Source: a virus
IMG/VR virus record: IMGVR_UViG_3300001589_000211
Coordinates: 1 to 22,469 of that record
Strand: one strand, 5' to 3'
DNA: 22,469 nucleotides
The notes under the pieces were generated by a model. It did not search any database. It saw only the letters and a program-made list of their open reading frames with translations, and was not told the origin of the DNA. The translations under genes and the position numbers were made by a program. Shown here piece by piece: positions 4,482 through 22,469 of this stretch; the stretch's first letter is position 1; the number at the start of each line of letters is the position of its first letter.

Positions 4482-6530
4482 ATGATAACAATCCTAGACG
4501 TAGAGAACACAGTAGTTAAAAGGAATGGCAAGATGCACCTTGATCCATTCGAACCAGAGAATACACTTGTTATGGTGGGGATGCTAGATGGTACTGGGCT
4601 TGAGCAAATTGTAACGTTTGACCACACAGAGCATCCCCCCACAGAAAATGGTAGGGAGATAGTACAGAAGATGCTTGATCGTACTACTCGTCTGGTTGCT
4701 CACAATGCAGTACATGATTTGATGTGGCTGTGGGAGTCAGGCTTTACCTATGATGGCAGAGTGTTTGATACCATGCTAGGTGAGTATGTACTACAGCGTG
4801 GGCAGAAAGAACCACTGTCTCTTGAAGCATGTGCAGAAAGACACCAGCTACATACACAGAAGCAGGACACACTGAAAGAATACTTTAAGCAAGGTCTGAA
4901 TGTATCAGAGATACCACACGATGAGTTGTCTGAGTATCTGTCTGCTGATCTGCATGCAACACAGCAGTTGTTCAGGCATCAGGACAGGCAGTATACGTAT
5001 GGTACAGGTAGAACATTAGTAGATACAATACGACTGACCAATGACTTAGTTGTACACCTAGCTCGTATATACCAACGAGGTTTCAAGGTAGACATGGAAG
5101 CACTTGAAGAGGTACGCAAAGAGTTTGAGGCAGAAAAGCAGGAGCTTACAGTACAGCTAGAGAAACAGGTACAGGAACTCATGGGTGACAGACCCATCAA
5201 TCTTAACAGCCCAGAGCAATTGTCTTGGATTATATTTAGCCGTAAGGTATTTGATAAGAAGGTCTGGGCTGAAGCATACGATGATCGTGTATCTGACAGG
5301 CAACACCTAGCAAACATAAGACAGATGACTTTACCTCTGTATAAACAGTATGCTGTTGTCTGTACACAGTGCATGGGTCATGGTTGGATACGTAAGAAGC
5401 GTAAGGATGGCTCACCATATAAGAATACAAACAACTGTCCTGAGTGTGCCAGTGCAGGGTATCTGTACCGTGACAGAAAAGAGTTAGCTGGGTTGAGGTT
5501 TAATGCACCTGATGCTAAGTGGGTAAGTGCCAATGGCTTCAGTACAAGTAAAGATACCCTAATATATTTAGAGGGCATAGCCAGATCACGAGGTATGTAT
5601 GATGCTGAGATGTTTCTACAGAGAGTACGCAGGTTGTCTGCTCTGGATACATACCTGTCCAGCTTTGTTGAGGGCATAGCTACCTATGTAAAGCCTGATG
5701 GTATGTTGCATGTACGTCTACTACAACACAGGACAGGTACAGGCAGGTTGTCTGGTGCTGATCCTAACATGCAGAACATGCCACGTGGTGGTACGTTTCC
5801 AGTTAAGAAAGTGTTTGTCTCTCGCTGGGATGGTGGACAGATTTGTGAAGCTGACTTCGCTCAGTTAGAGTTTCGTGTAGCTGCATTCCTCAGTCAGGAT
5901 AAGGTTGCAATAGAAGAGGTAGCTACAGGCTTTGATGTACACAGCTATACAGCTAAAGTTATTACAGAAGCAGGGCAACACATCTCTCGCCAAGACGCAA
6001 AGGCACACACATTTGCCCCTCTCTACGGTGCGTCTGGGTTTGGTCGTACACCAGCAGAAGCATCCTACTACCAACAGTTTACATCTAAGTACTCAGGTAT
6101 AGGTGCATGGCACAAGAAGCTAGCCAAGGAAGTAATTACTACAGGTAATGTGCGTACTCCATCAGGTCGTGAGTTTGCATTCCCTCTGGCTACACGTAGA
6201 GCCAATGGAAGTATTACATACTTTACTCAGGTAAAAAACTATCCTGTGCAATCATTTGCTACAGCAGACATTGTGCCTGTATCTCTTATCTACATAGACA
6301 AGATGTTACACGCTAACAAATTACAATCATGTGTTGTCAATACCGTACACGATTCAATCGTGATTGACGTACACCCTAATGAGAAGGAGAAAGTATTACG
6401 GATCATCAATCGTACCAATGAAGTACTGGTCGATATCATAAATAAGAAGTGGGATGTTGACTTTAATGTACCACTATTATTAGAAGCAAAAATAGGTAAT
6501 AATTGGCTTGACACAAAAGACGTGGCATGA
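4482..6530 (+). CDS. Family A DNA polymerase with 3'-5' exonuclease and DnaJ-like zinc-finger insert
   Basis: A 682-residue replicative polymerase. The N-terminal exonuclease has ExoI ILDVE (D6, E8), ExoII HNAVHD (D79) and ExoIII YLSAD (Y152, D156). The polymerase domain has motif A ADFAQLEFRV (D458), motif B R503-QDAK507-AHTF511-APLY515-G and motif C VHDS (H623, D624). The residue equivalent to E. coli Pol I position 762 is Phe (F511). Between thumb and palm, residues 294-325 hold CTQCMGHG...CPECASAG, a CxxCxGxG pair like the DnaJ central domain. This insert is known from the SAR116 phage HMO-2011 and its relatives and is absent from T7 polymerase. The gene is the centre of the replication operon and is followed by a 31-base gap with an AGGAGA site for the next gene. 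Confidence 0.96.
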   Translation: MITILDVENTVVKRNGKMHLDPFEPENTLVMVGMLDGTGLEQIVTFDHTEHPPTENGREIVQKMLDRTTRLVAHNAVHDLMWLWESGFTYDGRVFDTMLGEYVLQRGQKEPLSLEACAERHQLHTQKQDTLKEYFKQGLNVSEIPHDELSEYLSADLHATQQLFRHQDRQYTYGTGRTLVDTIRLTNDLVVHLARIYQRGFKVDMEALEEVRKEFEAEKQELTVQLEKQVQELMGDRPINLNSPEQLSWIIFSRKVFDKKVWAEAYDDRVSDRQHLANIRQMTLPLYKQYAVVCTQCMGHGWIRKKRKDGSPYKNTNNCPECASAGYLYRDRKELAGLRFNAPDAKWVSANGFSTSKDTLIYLEGIARSRGMYDAEMFLQRVRRLSALDTYLSSFVEGIATYVKPDGMLHVRLLQHRTGTGRLSGADPNMQNMPRGGTFPVKKVFVSRWDGGQICEADFAQLEFRVAAFLSQDKVAIEEVATGFDVHSYTAKVITEAGQHISRQDAKAHTFAPLYGASGFGRTPAEASYYQQFTSKYSGIGAWHKKLAKEVITTGNVRTPSGREFAFPLATRRANGSITYFTQVKNYPVQSFATADIVPVSLIYIDKMLHANKLQSCVVNTVHDSIVIDVHPNEKEKVLRIINRTNEVLVDIINKKWDVDFNVPLLLEAKIGNNWLDTKDVA

Positions 6531-6561: not shown

Positions 6562-7455
6562 ATGAATCAGATAACAAATTTAGATACAAGTAACTACGAA
6601 GCTATGGCAAAAGCAATGGGCATGAGTTCACTGGCAGTGCCAACAAAAGAGAAGACTAACTCTCTTGCAAGACTACGCATCCATCACACACCATTGATGG
6701 GTCAAGAAGAAATTAAAGGTAAGATGACTAACGTTGAGGTTGTCAGTGGTGGTGTATATAAACTGGAGATACCAGATAGTGATACATACTATGCAGAGAG
6801 CATAGCGATGCGTCCATTCTTACAGAGGTTTATGTACAAGCGTTTCATTAAAGGTAATGACACGACACCTAACAGGTATGTTAAGACAATCATGGCTGAT
6901 AATCTAAACATGGATCTCAAGGATAACGATGGACAGTTTAACTGTGGTAAACCTGCAGGGTACATCGAAGACTTCAAGGCTCTACCTGAGAAGATGCAGG
7001 ATCTAATAAGACAGATCAAACGTACACGAGTATTGTTTGGTACTGTTGACTTGGTTAATCCTGTTGATGCTAATGGCAACTCAGTAGACATTGATACTAC
7101 CCCATTCATATGGGAAGTAGAGAACCGTGATGCCTTTAAAACTATGGGTGATGTGTTTAATAAACTAAACAAAATGAAACGTCTTCCTGTACAGCACTAC
7201 GTTAAGGCAGGTACAGAGGAACGTAAGTTACCTAATGGTGGGTCGTTCTATCTACCTACTGCAGAGTTAGACTTGTCAGAAACACTTGACATGGATAACG
7301 ATACTCAGGAAAACCTAGCTAACTTCTTGGCTTGGGTAGCTAACTATAATGAATACATTATGGGTGCTTGGAATGATAATATGCAGAAGCACCAGTCAGT
7401 GGATAAAGATATTGTCAATGACTTTATTGACATTGATACTGCTGAGTTAGTGTAA
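6562..7455 (+). CDS. Conserved phage protein, candidate single-stranded DNA-binding protein
   Basis: A 297-residue soluble protein that I cannot assign by motif. It is mixed alpha/beta, with basic patches (SLARLRIHHTPL, KRFIKGNDTTPNRYVK) and an acidic, flexible C-terminal tail ending DIVNDFIDIDTAELV. An acidic tail ending in hydrophobic residues is how single-strand-binding proteins such as T7 gp2.5 and bacterial SSB contact polymerase and helicase. The position, directly between DNA polymerase and a recombination exonuclease, is also where a single-strand-binding protein is expected and no other gene here fills that role. The start has AGGAGAAATAT upstream, and the stop overlaps the exonuclease start (TAATG). 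Function is inference from context and the tail, not from a recognised OB-fold motif. Confidence 0.55.
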   Translation: MNQITNLDTSNYEAMAKAMGMSSLAVPTKEKTNSLARLRIHHTPLMGQEEIKGKMTNVEVVSGGVYKLEIPDSDTYYAESIAMRPFLQRFMYKRFIKGNDTTPNRYVKTIMADNLNMDLKDNDGQFNCGKPAGYIEDFKALPEKMQDLIRQIKRTRVLFGTVDLVNPVDANGNSVDIDTTPFIWEVENRDAFKTMGDVFNKLNKMKRLPVQHYVKAGTEERKLPNGGSFYLPTAELDLSETLDMDNDTQENLANFLAWVANYNEYIMGAWNDNMQKHQSVDKDIVNDFIDIDTAELV

Positions 7456-8312
7456 TGAACCATCCTGCTGAACTGCCCATTCATCAGTACCTTGATAACG
7501 CTTCCAATGGCAAGACAACTATGTCTGACGAAACCATTGAACAAGTAGCACAAGACATCAAGGATGCTATGAAGCGGCAGTTTGGTGGGGGCAATAGGAG
7601 AGATAAGTTTCGTCTACGTATGTCCAATATAGGTAGACCTACATGCCAACTCTGGTGGGAGAAGAACCATCCAGAGAAGGCACTCCCCAAGCCTACCACC
7701 TTCGTAATGAATATGTTAATAGGAGATATAGTTGAGGCAGCATTTAAAGGAATACTTAAAGAGGCTGGAGTTAAGTACGAAGATAAAGACAATGCCGTAT
7801 CTTTGGAGCTTGATAACACTACAGTTAATGGAAGCTATGATCTTGTTGTTGATGGTGCTTTGGATGACGTGAAGTCTGCGTCACACTGGTCATACACTAA
7901 CAAGTTCGAATCATACGACACACTAGCCAAAGGAGATGGCTTCGGATATATAGGTCAGCTTGCTGGCTACATCAAAGCATCAGCTAAAAAGATTGGTGGC
8001 TGGTGGGTAGTCAATAAAGCTAATGGTCAGATCAAGTACGTACCTGCAACAGGCTTAGACTTAGATGCAGAGATAGCAAAGTTAAACAGGACAGCTAAGA
8101 TTGTAGAAGCTAATGAGTTTAAACGTTGCTTCGAGCCTGCACCAGAGGTATACAGAGGTAAAGCATCTGGCAATAAAGTGTTGCCTGAAGGCTGTAGGTT
8201 CTGTGACTACAGGTATTCATGCTGGGATACTATTAAGGATCTGCCATCCAAAGTATACCAAGGTAAGAAGACACCCCCTACTGTGTCTTACATTGGAGAA
8301 GTAGTAGGGTGA
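7455..8312 (+). CDS. RecB/Cas4-like PD-(D/E)XK exonuclease with probable Fe-S cluster
   Basis: A 285-residue nuclease likely acting in phage recombination or end processing, in the slot where T7 has its gp6 exonuclease. The core motifs are GDIVEAAFKGIL (E94), NGSYDLVVDG (D129), DDVKSAS (D138-V-K140) and GQLAGY (Q168), the order seen in RecB/Cas4-family nucleases. One Cys lies before the nuclease core (GRPTC, C64) and three after it in CRFCDYRYSC (C247, C250, C256; CxxCx5C). This 1+3 arrangement is the Fe-S cluster pattern of Cas4, AddB and Dna2. Start and stop overlap neighbours (TAATG and GTGA). Nuclease fold is confident; the Fe-S cluster and polarity are inferred. There is no CRISPR context, so it should not be called Cas4. 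Confidence 0.85.
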   Translation: MNHPAELPIHQYLDNASNGKTTMSDETIEQVAQDIKDAMKRQFGGGNRRDKFRLRMSNIGRPTCQLWWEKNHPEKALPKPTTFVMNMLIGDIVEAAFKGILKEAGVKYEDKDNAVSLELDNTTVNGSYDLVVDGALDDVKSASHWSYTNKFESYDTLAKGDGFGYIGQLAGYIKASAKKIGGWWVVNKANGQIKYVPATGLDLDAEIAKLNRTAKIVEANEFKRCFEPAPEVYRGKASGNKVLPEGCRFCDYRYSCWDTIKDLPSKVYQGKKTPPTVSYIGEVVG

Positions 8313-8761
8313 ATGGTAAACGCTTTCAAGCTGCCCTAAAGCATGGGTACAGGAGTGGGTTGGAGATGAAAGTCTCCGACTACCTTAAAGAACTAAACGT
8401 ACCTGTGGTATATGAGGCCATTAAGATTGAATGGGAAGACCTTATGTACCGCACGTACACACCAGACTTTGTGTTGCCTAACGGTATCATAATAGAAACT
8501 AAAGGAAGGTTTACTGCAGCAGACAGACGAAAGCACATTGAAATAAAGAAACAACACCCTAAATTAGATATAAGATTTGTGTTCTACAACAGCAGAAACA
8601 AACTAAGTAAGGGTGCTAAGACTACATACCAAGGTTGGTGTGATAAGAATAAGTTTCTTTATCACGATAGGATCGTACCACTGGAGTGGCTAAAAGAAAA
8701 AGGAAAGAATAAACACAAACCTGTAATACAATTACCCTATAAAAAAATAATAAGGAGATAG
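8309..8761 (+). CDS. T7 endonuclease I-like Holliday junction resolvase
   Basis: A 150-residue resolvase that should cut branched and Holliday-junction DNA, helping to debranch replicating phage DNA and degrade host DNA. It matches the T7 gp3 pattern closely: YRSGLEMKVSDYL (E19), YTPDFVLPNGI (D53), IIETKGRF (E63, K65), RRKHIEIKKQHPKLDIRFVF and NSRNKLSKGAKTTY. Length is close to T7 gp3 (149 residues). The start is GTG at 8309, in a GTGA overlap with the exonuclease stop. No in-frame ATG lies upstream of the catalytic E19; the first internal Met follows it, so the GTG start is needed for an active enzyme. The basic tail ends KKIIRR. Confidence 0.93.
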   Translation: MNGKRFQAALKHGYRSGLEMKVSDYLKELNVPVVYEAIKIEWEDLMYRTYTPDFVLPNGIIIETKGRFTAADRRKHIEIKKQHPKLDIRFVFYNSRNKLSKGAKTTYQGWCDKNKFLYHDRIVPLEWLKEKGKNKHKPVIQLPYKKIIRR

Positions 8762-8764
8762 CCC

Positions 8765-9121
8765 ATGACAATAGAAGTAGATGATTTTGATGTAAACGAT
8801 TTTATAATAAGAATGAAACCTAACTTCGATACAGGAGGAGCATGGAATGGTTTTATAGATCTCGATATTATTACAGACAATAAAAGAACTATGGCTCAAA
8901 AAGATTATCTTAACATAATGCAAGTCGCATCTCTTGTATGTTCCTCTCTACCTCTGATGGAATTAGATGAGAATTTTAGAGATACCCTTTGCAATTACGT
9001 AGAAGATATGATAAAAGAAGAAGACAGGCAAGATAGGAAAGACGTAGTAAAAGAAGCCGTTTCAAATGCTACAGGAAATGTTATCAAAGTTAATTTTAGT
9101 AAGGGAGGAAGTCATGGCTAG
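8765..9121 (+). CDS. Small hypothetical protein (118 aa)
   Basis: A 118-residue, mainly acidic soluble protein, not recognised. The N-terminal half (VDDFDVNDFIIRMKPNF, GFIDLDIIT) looks beta-rich, and the second half (MDELDENF-like through MIKEEDRQDRKDVVKEAV) looks helical and charged. The start follows AAGGAGATAGCCC, a strong Shine-Dalgarno only a few bases after the resolvase stop, so it is in the same operon. It overlaps the DUF3310 gene by 8 bases (ATGGCTAG). No signal peptide or membrane segment. Its place between recombination and nucleotide-metabolism genes gives no clear hint of function. Confidence 0.75.
   Translation: MTIEVDDFDVNDFIIRMKPNFDTGGAWNGFIDLDIITDNKRTMAQKDYLNIMQVASLVCSSLPLMELDENFRDTLCNYVEDMIKEEDRQDRKDVVKEAVSNATGNVIKVNFSKGGSHG
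9101..9110 (+). promoter_or_regulatory. Ribosome binding site fixing the start at 9114
   Basis: AAGGGAGGAA lies 3 bases before the ATG at 9114. It favours that start over the in-frame ATG at 9066, which would put the site inside the gene. Confidence 0.5.
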
Positions 9122-9353
9122 TAAAAAAGTATACGATGTAGTAGAGAAGCCAGAGCATTACAATCAGGATCATGACATAGAATGTATTGATGCCATACGT
9201 GCTGCACTGGGTGATGGGTTTAAAGAATATCTACAGGGTAATATACTCAAGTATATATGGAGACATAAGTATAAGAACGGTGTAGAAGATTTAAACAAAG
9301 CACGTTGGTACTTAGATAGATTAATAGAAGCAGAGATAACAGATGGTAATTAA
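9114..9353 (+). CDS. DUF3310-family phage protein
   Basis: A 79-residue protein with the DUF3310 pattern common in phages: a PEHYNQD motif near residues 13-19, IECIDAI, then the core GNILKYIWRHKYKNGVEDLNKARWYLDRL. Phage nucleotide-kinase or metabolism regions often contain this family, but its biochemical role is not established. The start at 9114 was chosen because of an AAGGGAGGAA site directly upstream; an in-frame ATG at 9066 would overlap the preceding gene by about 56 bases. It overlaps the preceding gene by 8 bases and the following 52-codon gene by 11 bases. Confidence 0.88.
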   Translation: MASKKVYDVVEKPEHYNQDHDIECIDAIRAALGDGFKEYLQGNILKYIWRHKYKNGVEDLNKARWYLDRLIEAEITDGN

Positions 9354-12253: not shown

Positions 12254-12266
12254 AAACATTTAGGGG
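12251..12266 (+). repeat. Direct repeat copy 1 flanking the tRNA
   Basis: TAGAAACATTTAGGGG matches the stretch at 12339-12354 at 15 of 16 positions, with 13 consecutive identical bases (AAACATTTAGGGG). It starts on the MazG stop codon and ends in the first four G of the tRNA acceptor stem. Confidence 0.8.
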
Positions 12267-12338
12267 TCTTAGCTCAGTTGGTAGAGCATCTGATTTGCAT
12301 TCAGGAGGTCAGGAGTTCGACTCTCCTAGACTCCACCA
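12263..12338 (+). tRNA. tRNA-Ala (anticodon UGC)
   Basis: A complete 76-base cloverleaf. The acceptor stem GGGGTCT (12263-12269) pairs with AGACTCC (12328-12334). The D-arm is GCTC-AGTTGGTA-GAGC. The anticodon stem TCTGA/TCAGG encloses loop TTTGCAT, giving anticodon TGC at 12296-12298. The variable loop is five bases, and the T-arm is AGGAG-TTCGACT-CTCCT. Discriminator A and CCA are encoded. The third acceptor pair is G:U (G3:U70), the main identity element for alanyl-tRNA synthetase, so alanine charging is expected. It would read GCA and GCG codons. It lies at the end of the early operon just before the terminator and is intact, not a 3' fragment. It could supplement host tRNA for Ala-rich virion proteins. 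Confidence 0.96.
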
Positions 12339-20822: not shown

Positions 20823-21227
20823 TTAGTTTTCAAATGCTAAACTTCTTAATTTTTTAAGTTCTTGTTGTAGCTTCATTACTTCTAGTTCTTTTTTCTGTAA
20901 CTCTAGTTCATATAGTCTGTTACAATCTATTCTTGACTTAACTCTTTTACCTAGTGGTATTATTATTCTACTGTATACACCTATGTCACCAGTTTTTTTA
21001 CTGTTAGTAGATATAGTACCACCCTGTATTATACCTGTAACTCCAAACTCCCACTGTGTCGCAGAGCCTATGGCGTTACTGCAGTCTAGTTCACCAGCTC
21101 TAAACTTATCAGCTTGGTAACTCATACTAGAGTTAGGTAGTGATAAACTTAACGAGTTAGATGTAGAGTCTGCCCAACTAGGTATATAGCTACATACAAG
21201 TAAACATATAATTAATAGTATTCTCAT
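20823..21227 (-). CDS. Secreted small protein with C-terminal coiled coil (134 aa)
   Basis: A 134-residue exported protein. A Sec signal peptide (MRILLIICLLVCSYIPSWA) is likely cut after residue 19. The mature part is Ser/Asn-rich and beta-like (SNSLSLSLPNSSMSY, WEFGVTGIIQGG, GVYSRIIIPLG), with two Cys (FRAGELDCSNAIGS and SRIDCNRLYE) positioned for a disulfide. It ends in a helical, Leu/Glu/Lys-rich tail (about 104-134). The -1 residue before Cys12 is Val, so it lacks a proper lipobox and should not be a lipoprotein. The start overlaps the chaperone-like gene stop by ATGA. It is the third consecutive exported protein in this operon. The function is unknown; the envelope of the infected host is the probable site of action. 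Confidence 0.78.
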   Translation of the reverse strand: MRILLIICLLVCSYIPSWADSTSNSLSLSLPNSSMSYQADKFRAGELDCSNAIGSATQWEFGVTGIIQGGTISTNSKKTGDIGVYSRIIIPLGKRVKSRIDCNRLYELELQKKELEVMKLQQELKKLRSLAFEN

Positions 21228-21610
21228 TCGTCTTGCTCTATCTTAGAACATATTCTTGAAGATACTAGTGTAACTTGCTTTGTACTCTTGTACACCTTTG
21301 ACTCTGTACATATATACATAGCCTTTGGTAAGTCTACTGATCTTATGTATACCTCAAATAGTTTTCTTCTACTGAAGGATACTTTTATTATCTTTGAACT
21401 AGAAGCAAATGGTAATGCTTTCCAGTCTTTCGTAAAGACACCTATCTCATAATACTCTACGTCATCTCTTCTATTAAATATTTTCATCTTTGCTACGTAT
21501 ACATCGTCTACATAAGATGGTACTAGCTTGGGATAGGTAGGTGTCATTTCGTGTGCATGTAGGGTTGTACAAAAAATAAGACCTAATGCTAGTATTATTT
21601 TGCTATACAT
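21224..21610 (-). CDS. Secreted PapD/pilus-chaperone-like protein (128 aa)
   Basis: A 128-residue protein with a signal peptide (MYSKIILALGLIFCTTLHA, cut near residue 19). The mature sequence has the run of strands expected of a single immunoglobulin-like domain: KLVPSYVDDVYVAKMKIFNRRDDVEYYEIGVFTKDW, then ALPFASSSKIIKVSFSRRKLFEVYIRSV, and a final disulfide-capable pair (C101, C121). Strand order and the R/K-rich linker before the last strands recall the N-terminal domain of periplasmic pilus chaperones (PapD and Csu type). The second domain of true chaperones is missing. It is directly downstream of a pilin-like secreted gene (16-base overlap), which is why I call it chaperone-like. The Ig-like fold and pairing are inferred; strict motif identity was not tested. 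Confidence 0.6.
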   Translation of the reverse strand: MYSKIILALGLIFCTTLHAHEMTPTYPKLVPSYVDDVYVAKMKIFNRRDDVEYYEIGVFTKDWKALPFASSSKIIKVSFSRRKLFEVYIRSVDLPKAMYICTESKVYKSTKQVTLVSSRICSKIEQDE

Positions 21611-22092
21611 TCTGCTTTAATTAATGCTGTATAGTTACCTGCTGGTAGAGACTTAGTGCTACCATACTGTGCAGTTGACTCTACAGTAAACCATGTGCTA
21701 CCTGCAAGTGTCAAGTTAAACTCAGTTACGTTGTTGTATGTAACCTTTGCAGCTTCATATGCTGACATACCTGATACAGATACCTGTCCTACTTTAGTGC
21801 TGCCTGTCCATGCAACTGAGTCATTAAGTGTTGGGCTTGATGAGAAGCTGTTAGGATGTGTAAACTTAGCTTTGTAGTAGTCTGCCTGTGCTACATCTAT
21901 TCTAATAGAAGCCTTTACGCCACCATCTGCTGGTGTTGTAGTTAGCTTATAGGGTAATGGATGTCCGTAGACACCTGCTGTTTCAGTCCATACAGAACAT
22001 TTGCTTTGTACTTGCCCTTGTATTGGTGAGTCCACCGCTAATGCAGAAGACGCTGACATTAACAGTATTGCTGTTGCTAATCTTTTTATCAT
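21595..22092 (-). CDS. Secreted pilin-like/spore-coat-U-like beta protein (165 aa)
   Basis: A 165-residue exported protein. The signal peptide MIKRLATAILLMSASSALA is cut after residue 19. The mature part starts VDSPIQGQVQSKCSVW and is almost wholly beta and rich in Ser, Thr, Gly and Ala, without charged clusters. The final strand GNYTALIKAECIAK resembles the last strand of fimbrial subunits. Two Cys (C32 and C162) bracket the domain and could form one disulfide, as in fimbrial/spore-coat-U (Csu) subunits. Start and spacing: TGGAGATATC upstream, 12 bases after the preceding acidic gene. The next gene is the chaperone-like one, overlapping by 16 bases. A pilin-like fold is inferred from composition, the Cys pattern and the neighbour; the purpose in a phage is unknown. 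Confidence 0.6.
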   Translation of the reverse strand: MIKRLATAILLMSASSALAVDSPIQGQVQSKCSVWTETAGVYGHPLPYKLTTTPADGGVKASIRIDVAQADYYKAKFTHPNSFSSSPTLNDSVAWTGSTKVGQVSVSGMSAYEAAKVTYNNVTEFNLTLAGSTWFTVESTAQYGSTKSLPAGNYTALIKAECIAK

Positions 22093-22104
22093 GATATCTC
22101 CATT

Positions 22105-22469
22105 TTATTTATCATATTGTGAACGAACTAATGTTCTGTGTAAATTATCTTGTGCTAGGTTTCTTAATGCTCTAGTGTTATCTTTTATCTCTGCATCTTT
22201 TAACTCTATTGTATCTTCGTAGCTACCACCCTCTATAGTTGCACTGTAGTAACTATCCAGTGTACCTGTAGAAGCTAACTGTTGCATCATGGCAAGTTGC
22301 TGCATCGGGTTAGCTATTTGTTCTGCTGCTCCAGCTACAGACAAAGCTTTCTCTAGCTTTAACTCTTCCTGCTCTTCTTTTTTAGCTTCTTGTTCTTTTT
22401 TCTCTTCTTCTTCCTGTTCCTCTGTCTTACGATCCATTTGGTATTGTACCCACTCATCGTAATAAGGAT
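22105..22469 (-). CDS. Acidic coiled-coil late protein, 5' end beyond the window
   Basis: From the first in-frame ATG at 22437 this is 110 residues, but the frame stays open to the window edge (PYYDEWVQYQ precedes that Met), so the gene probably begins outside and only its C-terminal part is seen. Residues after the Met are a very charged Glu/Lys/Gln helix (KTEEQEEEEKKEQEAKKEEQEELKLEKAL). An Ala/Gln/Met-rich segment (AAEQIANPMQQLAMMQQLAS) and a mixed tail ending LHRTLVRSQYDK follow. This looks like the end of a virion or scaffolding-type protein, but no family can be named. It is the most upstream visible gene of the - strand late operon, 12 bases before the pilin-like gene. Confidence 0.65.
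   Translation of the reverse strand, partial: PYYDEWVQYQMDRKTEEQEEEEKKEQEAKKEEQEELKLEKALSVAGAAEQIANPMQQLAMMQQLASTGTLDSYYSATIEGGSYEDTIELKDAEIKDNTRALRNLAQDNLHRTLVRSQYDK

Follow-up and report, generated by a model that had tools for sequence, protein, structure and literature searches.

Chaperone-usher systems normally need an outer-membrane usher, and their chaperones have two Ig domains (PapD_N and PapD_C). The FGL chaperones are described by a disulfide between strands F1 and G1, an F1-G1 loop with an average length of 24, and two basic anchors, an Arg in A1 and a Lys in G1 (PMC4133393). Donor-strand fibres can also be built without an usher, as in the TasA/TapA system of Bacillus, which uses a dedicated helper (PMC10151520). 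On the phage side, T5 llp lies downstream of the receptor-binding gene pb5, and superinfection-exclusion (SE) lipoproteins have been found next to receptor-binding genes (PMC9586334). We found no phage-encoded usher-less pilus system in the open-access literature. Here, we describe three genes of a marine phage, also present in other phages and in bacteria, for a predicted one-domain chaperone, a pilin-like subunit and a third exported protein.

The window, meaning the whole stretch of DNA analysed, is a 22.5-kb IMG/VR record (IMGVR_UViG_3300001589_000211; 22,469 nucleotides). Its DNA polymerase is closest to those of Roseobacter phages CRP-345 and CRP-1 and of HMO-2011, and we therefore assign the window to an HMO-2011-type phage. 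The polymerase A gene (4482-6530, plus strand) carries a CxxC-rich (DnaJ-like zinc) insertion, a trait known for phages of this type. A tyrosine integrase is encoded at 682-1596 on the plus strand, which fits the integrase-carrying HMO-2011 subgroups I and III (PMC9038755). A tRNA-Ala (TGC) lies between two gene blocks at 12263-12338, plus strand; with the integrase present, it is possibly an attachment-site tRNA mimic. The features at issue here are the following.

22105..22469, minus strand: P0005, C-terminal part, cut by the window end; full-length relatives have about 286-319 residues and a signal peptide
21595..22092, minus strand: P1, 165 residues, pilin-like exported subunit (AF2 model, Foldseek); signal peptide at residues 1-19
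22000..22035, minus strand: P1 residues 20-31, the mature N-terminus VDSPIQGQVQSK, candidate donor strand (DSSP of the model)
21224..21610, minus strand: P2, 128 residues, exported single-domain PapD/FGL-like chaperone (AF2 model, VIA-align, profile matches)
21248..21310, minus strand: P2 F-G loop, bounded by Cys101 on the predicted F strand and Cys121 on the predicted G strand, and Lys123
20823..21227, minus strand: P3, 134 residues, exported; a short core rich in beta structure, containing one Cys pair, precedes a C-terminal helix
20311..20814, minus strand: P4, 167 residues, N-terminal membrane helix and long predicted coiled coil

The initial annotation had singled out P1, P2 and P3 as three overlapping genes; they lie on the minus strand, and on recheck their positions and the overlaps of 16 bases (P1/P2) and 4 bases (P2/P3) proved exact. 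It had also given each protein a Sec signal peptide, which is borne out: in each sequence one can read a hydrophobic N-terminal signal and, following residue 19, a cleavage site of A-x-A-like type, and a mechanical score for signal-like N-termini was passed by 86/98 P1, 96/99 P2 and 86/88 P3 distinct viral homologues. Each protein further has one conserved Cys pair (C32/C162 in P1, C101/C121 in P2, C49/C102 in P3), retained in bacterial relatives, and dN/dS values of 0.12-0.18 indicate purifying selection on the genes. That these are late genes is something we infer from their position beside tail-fibre and internal-virion-like genes; they lie within that minus-strand block, and no promoter of their own was identified.

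Family libraries offer little guidance. Pfam and NCBIfam gave no useful match for the trio except that of one P1 family member to fimbrial StkA (E 6e-5), a search of PDB sequences returned nothing useful for P1 or P3, and no function for the trio was found in curated family libraries. Weak full-length matches connect P1, P2 and P3 with PHROGs 25895, 25455 and 37374, respectively, all of unknown function. These are probably the families of the trio of Vibrio phage pVp-1 (see below), which their profile lengths fit; the PHROG table records neither a function nor a mutual link for them.

P2 gives the clearest connection to a described system. The initial annotation had read it as one PapD-type Ig domain with a disulfide near its end, and the predicted fold upholds this. 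In an AF2 model built from 65 sequences (mean pLDDT 89.3), the structural ranking by VIA-align consists mostly of pilus chaperones, aligned across the N-domain over roughly 100 residues, with Caf1M (Z 10.5) and DraB (10.3) among the first, then FimC (about 10), PapD (9.7) and CsuC (9.2). Two other kinds of domain score about as high against this model: MSP/VAP domains, at Z 9-10, and a glucosaminidase domain. Support independent of the model comes from a profile match to DraB (E 0.005), and hhalign against a PapD_N set gave E 6e-5 at a probability of 65%, while PF00345 itself did not match P2. Of the homologues, 96/99 viral and 40/40 bacterial ones have the Cys pair, its members 14-22 residues apart, against the average FGL loop of 24, and a Lys or Arg stands at +2 of the second Cys in 96/96 viral and 38/40 bacterial versions (134/136 in all; Lys123 in the window copy). 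The placing of the two cysteines in the predicted F and G strands and of the basic residue matches the description of FGL chaperones (PMC4133393), so that the PapD-type assignment can be refined to one that resembles Caf1M and DraB but has a single domain. Judged by eye, only the bacterial members have a plausible candidate for the A1 arginine. In the Csu loci, phmmer with FimC retrieved no relative, and the Csu chaperones there were picked by eye and then aligned. We also considered a histidine brace, given the mature N-terminal His of phage versions, and rejected it: a second conserved His is absent, and the first is missing in most bacterial members.

The case for P1 is less direct. The initial annotation took it for a fimbrial or Csu-type beta subunit with a single disulfide, and a fold without an Ig-like sandwich would have spoken against both proteins; an Ig-like fold is predicted for P2 and a beta-sandwich for P1. 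The P1 model (AF2, 66 sequences, pLDDT 92.4) has a free N-terminal strand, residues 20-31 being in no strand by DSSP, and its final strand runs to the C-terminus in pilin fashion. Hydrophobic residues at -4 and -8 before Cys32 recur in 85/85 viral and 60-65/66 bacterial homologues. The best Foldseek matches include FimF, CfaB, the PapG pilin domain, FimG and CsuA/B (E 1e-3 to 2e-2). FimF heads the list and SdrE, CfaB and the PapG pilin domain come next; the pilins, at E about 1e-3 and TM about 0.4, are interleaved at similar E with MSCRAMM, AP2-mu2 and other Ig-like domains. VIA-align ranks MSCRAMM domains first, at Z 7-8, a range that the tool classes as common. In BFVD, a fold search with P1 and P2 led mostly to generic Ig domains and to phage proteins that are unnamed or uncharacterised. 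Since the pilin matches are weak and mixed, our reading of P1 as pilin-like, which we regard as the best one, depends more on its partnership with P2 than on fold rank; weakly, the model suggests an incomplete Ig-like subunit with a candidate N-terminal donor strand. The Csu-type assignment does not stand in one respect: the last Cys lies 1-3 residues from the C-terminus in every homologue having the pair, and the disulfide would link the first strand to the last residues, unlike the A-B pattern of Csu and FimA. Membership in the SCPU family (PF05229) was not supported: none of 22 P1 members had an SCPU match, and profile comparison aligns the last 29 columns only.

P3 had been described as a secreted protein with a coiled-coil tail. 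Its predicted secretion stands; the tail is a predicted C-terminal helix only, and the label of plain secreted protein needs correction, because a lipobox-like motif occurs in 35/88 viral versions, the window copy not being among the clear ones. No useful match for P3 was found in Pfam, NCBIfam or PDB sequences. We regard it as a candidate outer-membrane anchor or assembly base.

The initial annotation saw no usher gene, and none has emerged since: PF00577 matched 0/15 phage records at E<=10, several of these records being fragments, and it is absent from 7/11 trio-bearing bacterial genomes, taken as assemblies of unspecified completeness. Where ushers are present in such genomes, their contig coordinates mostly fall with SCPU and PapD_N genes; likewise, the PF00345 proteins of four trio-bearing bacterial genomes are encoded elsewhere only, mostly at SCPU clusters.

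How does the trio compare with the systems above? With FGL chaperone-usher systems (Caf1M/Caf1, DraB/DraE, SafB/SafA) it shares the chaperone N-domain fold predicted for P2, cysteines on both the predicted F1 strand and the predicted G1 strand, the latter followed at +2 by a basic residue, a modelled P1 beta-sandwich that ends at its last strand and leaves the N-terminal strand free, and the adjacency of chaperone and subunit genes. It differs in having one chaperone domain rather than two, no usher, no PF00345 match in P2, a P1 Cys pair that would bridge first strand and C-terminus, and the additional P3. Archaic Csu/SCPU pili have a similar N-terminal donor-like pattern before the first Cys, and CsuC and CsuA/B are among the matches of P2 (Z 9.2) and P1 (Foldseek E 0.02), respectively; however, P1 has no SCPU match, and separate SCPU-usher clusters co-exist with the trio in some genomes. 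TasA/TapA and archaeal donor-strand pili likewise combine a helper protein with the lack of an usher, and P1 has weak Foldseek matches to bundling pili of Pyrobaculum and to Pyrodictium cannulae, but the TapA helper donates its own N-terminus, the envelopes are Gram-positive or archaeal, and there is no P3. Finally, T5 Llp and related superinfection-exclusion lipoproteins of phages are also small exported proteins encoded beside receptor-binding genes, but Llp is a single lipoprotein plug, with neither chaperone nor subunit.

The trio is conserved as a unit. Independent occurrence of the genes in related phages would have argued against this; instead, the order P1-P2-P3 is kept in all 258 viral loci examined, apart from cuts at contig ends, although loci from one contig recur in this set and are not independent counts. 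The 16-base overlap is found in 111/124 gene pairs (from partly overlapping loci, hence not independent events). Scans of viral contigs with single-sequence patterns gave 68 P1 loci and 137 candidate P3 relatives, and profiles gave at least 388 P1 and at least 549 P2 relatives. Among isolate phages, tblastn found nothing with P2 or P3, and P1 gave a weak match (E 0.2) that led to the pVp-1 trio, which has the same 16-base overlap between its first two genes. Profiles recover this trio at E 1e-21 to 1e-24, having been iterated on a set that included pVp-1; with an alignment built without pVp-1, its P3 scores E 3.5e-20. A search with P3 by itself reached 195 isolate phages, 184 of them Vibrio phages. 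Reading individual genomes, we saw the trio or P2-P3 pairs in Thalassa, in Vibrio phages of 60 kb and 83 kb, and in two jumbo phages; P2-P3 without a recognisable P1 occurs in the two jumbo phages and two Comamonadaceae loci. One 201-kb record (locus L133) has the trio among genes that look T4-like by eye. Carriers thus range from podoviruses of the HMO-2011 type, a T4-like phage and Vibrio phages (T5-like, 60 kb and 83 kb) to bacteria. The trio is absent from the closest cultured relatives, CRP-1, CRP-345, HMO-2011, CRP-207 and HTVC033P (P3 was searched in these five HMO-2011-type isolates), and so is not essential to this phage type.

The exported block of three is larger in relatives, where tail-fibre and collagen-like genes are followed by a secreted protein of 200-230 residues, then P0005, then P1. 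P0005, directly upstream of P1 and without a phage or PHROG match, is a candidate tip or accessory subunit. The 200-226-residue secreted protein upstream of P0005 has a C-terminal membrane tail in loci L027 (4570-5172) and L133 (1582-2262), and the L027 copy matches phrog_20531. On the other side, nearly all such viral loci have P4 after P3, most of them immediately after it; P4 is missing in bacterial cassettes and Vibrio phages and has a homologue without the trio in HTVC115P, and we therefore place it outside the core. In Vibrio phages, two large fibre-like proteins, whose PHROGs have no recorded function, precede the trio; in the T5-like ones a small lipoprotein gene comes right after P3, and the trio lies just before the holin and endolysin.

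The trio had been described as phage-encoded, which holds, but it is not phage-specific, because bacterial chromosomes and plasmids carry it as well. Scanning bacteria with a single genome for each species, we obtained 45 loci, four of which look like phage contigs because the whole viral module is present; most of the others carry P1-P2-P3. Stand-alone cassettes occur in Mesorhizobium, Aminobacter, Aureimonas, Sphingomonadales and Vibrionaceae. In Rhizobiales, a second P1-like gene follows P1-P2-P3, and the genes around the cassette on a Mesorhizobium chromosome have, by eye, a housekeeping character; none of phage type was seen there. P3 was found in 6/297 sampled genomes of the order of the Mesorhizobium carrier, and its occurrence is thus sporadic. 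Photobacterium and a Vibrio nigripulchritudo plasmid have a small pilin-like gene, a gene for an exported protein of 264-313 residues, then P2 and P3, the end of P3 being overlapped by a gene with an EAL domain (the Photobacterium EAL call was made by eye). The 264-313-residue protein (L148, 4668-5609; L351, 4757-5551), encoded upstream of P2, has a pilin-like C-terminal end and is possibly a two-domain tip adhesin or tip subunit.

What might such a cassette do? The reading that we prefer, and to which we give an even chance, is that the trio forms a minimal export cassette of chaperone and subunit that works without an usher and yields an adhesive fibre or coat, with which phages remodel the surface of the infected cell. 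P1 would be a subunit whose Ig-like fold is incomplete and whose N-terminal strand is free. P2 would be its periplasmic chaperone, an FGL-type protein of one domain that keeps hold of P1 by offering it a G strand. P3 would be a partner at the outer membrane, lipid-anchored in part, that anchors or nucleates P1, which would form a fibre or coat through donor-strand exchange. Bacteria would retain the cassette for surface or adhesion functions, sometimes coupled to an EAL (c-di-GMP) gene; phages, with the trio beside tail-fibre genes, would most likely alter the surface of the infected cell with it, for receptor masking, superinfection exclusion or lysogen adhesion. We favour surface remodelling and superinfection exclusion for the phages because of the gene position and the T5 Llp precedent (PMC9586334). 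The chaperone-subunit part of the reading is well supported; P1-P2 binding, fibre polymerisation, the role of P3, surface location and phage benefit are steps that we infer. Against the reading as a whole count the weak match of P1 to pilins, the missing second domain of P2 and its MSP/VAP matches, the loci with P2-P3 and no P1, and the absence of the trio from the closest relatives.

Perhaps no fibre is made at all, and the exported proteins, among them P3 as a lipoprotein, occupy an outer-membrane receptor of the host from its periplasmic or surface side, like T5 Llp and FhuA, so that progeny are not lost on infected cells or debris. The trio does lie downstream of fibre-like genes in several phage groups, as llp does of pb5; 35/88 viral P3 versions have the lipobox-like motif, T5-like Vibrio phages have the extra lipoprotein gene, and SE lipoproteins occur beside receptor-binding genes (PMC9586334). 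Nevertheless, a plug lipoprotein needs no pilus-type chaperone with a dedicated subunit, bacterial chromosomes retain the cassette in places where no phage genes were seen around it, and we think this unlikely. We are more sceptical still of lysogenic conversion, in which a lysogen would gain an adhesive surface structure to its own benefit rather than that of lytic growth. The integrase, as in HMO-2011 subgroups I and III (PMC9038755), would permit it and the EAL genes adjoining bacterial cassettes suggest adhesion or biofilm, but the genes sit in the tail-fibre/internal-virion-like block with no promoter of their own identified, and T4-like and T5-like phages, usually virulent types, have them too.

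The neighbouring tail-fibre and collagen-like fibre genes could also point to a virion component, exported, oxidatively folded in the periplasm and attached to particles at lysis as an extra adhesin. This is very improbable: Sec signals place the proteins across the inner membrane from assembling virions, and the same gene set occurs in bacteria without phage genes. A lysis module, with lipoprotein-like P3 and P4 (inner-membrane helix, coiled coil) as a spanin-like pair and P1 and P2 as passengers, has the slimmest chance of all. P4, which comes right after P3 in most viral loci, has a spanin-like layout and the trio precedes holin and endolysin in T5-like Vibrio phages, yet P3 occurs without P4 in bacterial cassettes and Vibrio phages, P4 also occurs without the trio, and the annotated Rz-like spanin of Thalassa lies elsewhere than the trio.

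The trio recurs without an usher in unrelated phages and bacteria, and may thus be an undescribed way of building on the cell surface. In the strongest form of this idea, which we put forward as a doubtful but serious conjecture, P1-P2-P3 would be a Gram-negative usher-less donor-strand fibre pathway, with P3 oligomers replacing the usher, and a mobile late module repeatedly acquired by unrelated phages to coat the infected cell. If true, there would be an export and assembly route that uses a one-domain chaperone and a small outer-membrane partner instead of an usher, and that phages carry, as a candidate of a new kind beside the few ways known so far for phages to change the infected-cell surface. 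The trio is common in marine viral contigs and present in cultured Vibrio phages and Mesorhizobium, and the proposal is thus testable now.

Several further genes adjoin the module in individual loci. Some phages encode a small exported protein between P3 and P4 that looks by eye like an outer-membrane barrel (L133, 4432-4773; L121, 3190-3534; L072, 5735-6061), and several marine phages have a lipase-like gene with a GHSLGG motif next to the module (L120, 6420-7178; L303, 5814-6530; L133, 5340-6065). The 201-kb T4-like L133 also has heme-oxygenase-like (6975-7559) and porin-like (757-1548) genes beside it, again by eye. In pelagiphage HTVC115P (L355), gp46 (8703-9152), annotated as a toxin-activating lysine-acyltransferase, lies about 2.3 kb downstream of the P4 homologue.
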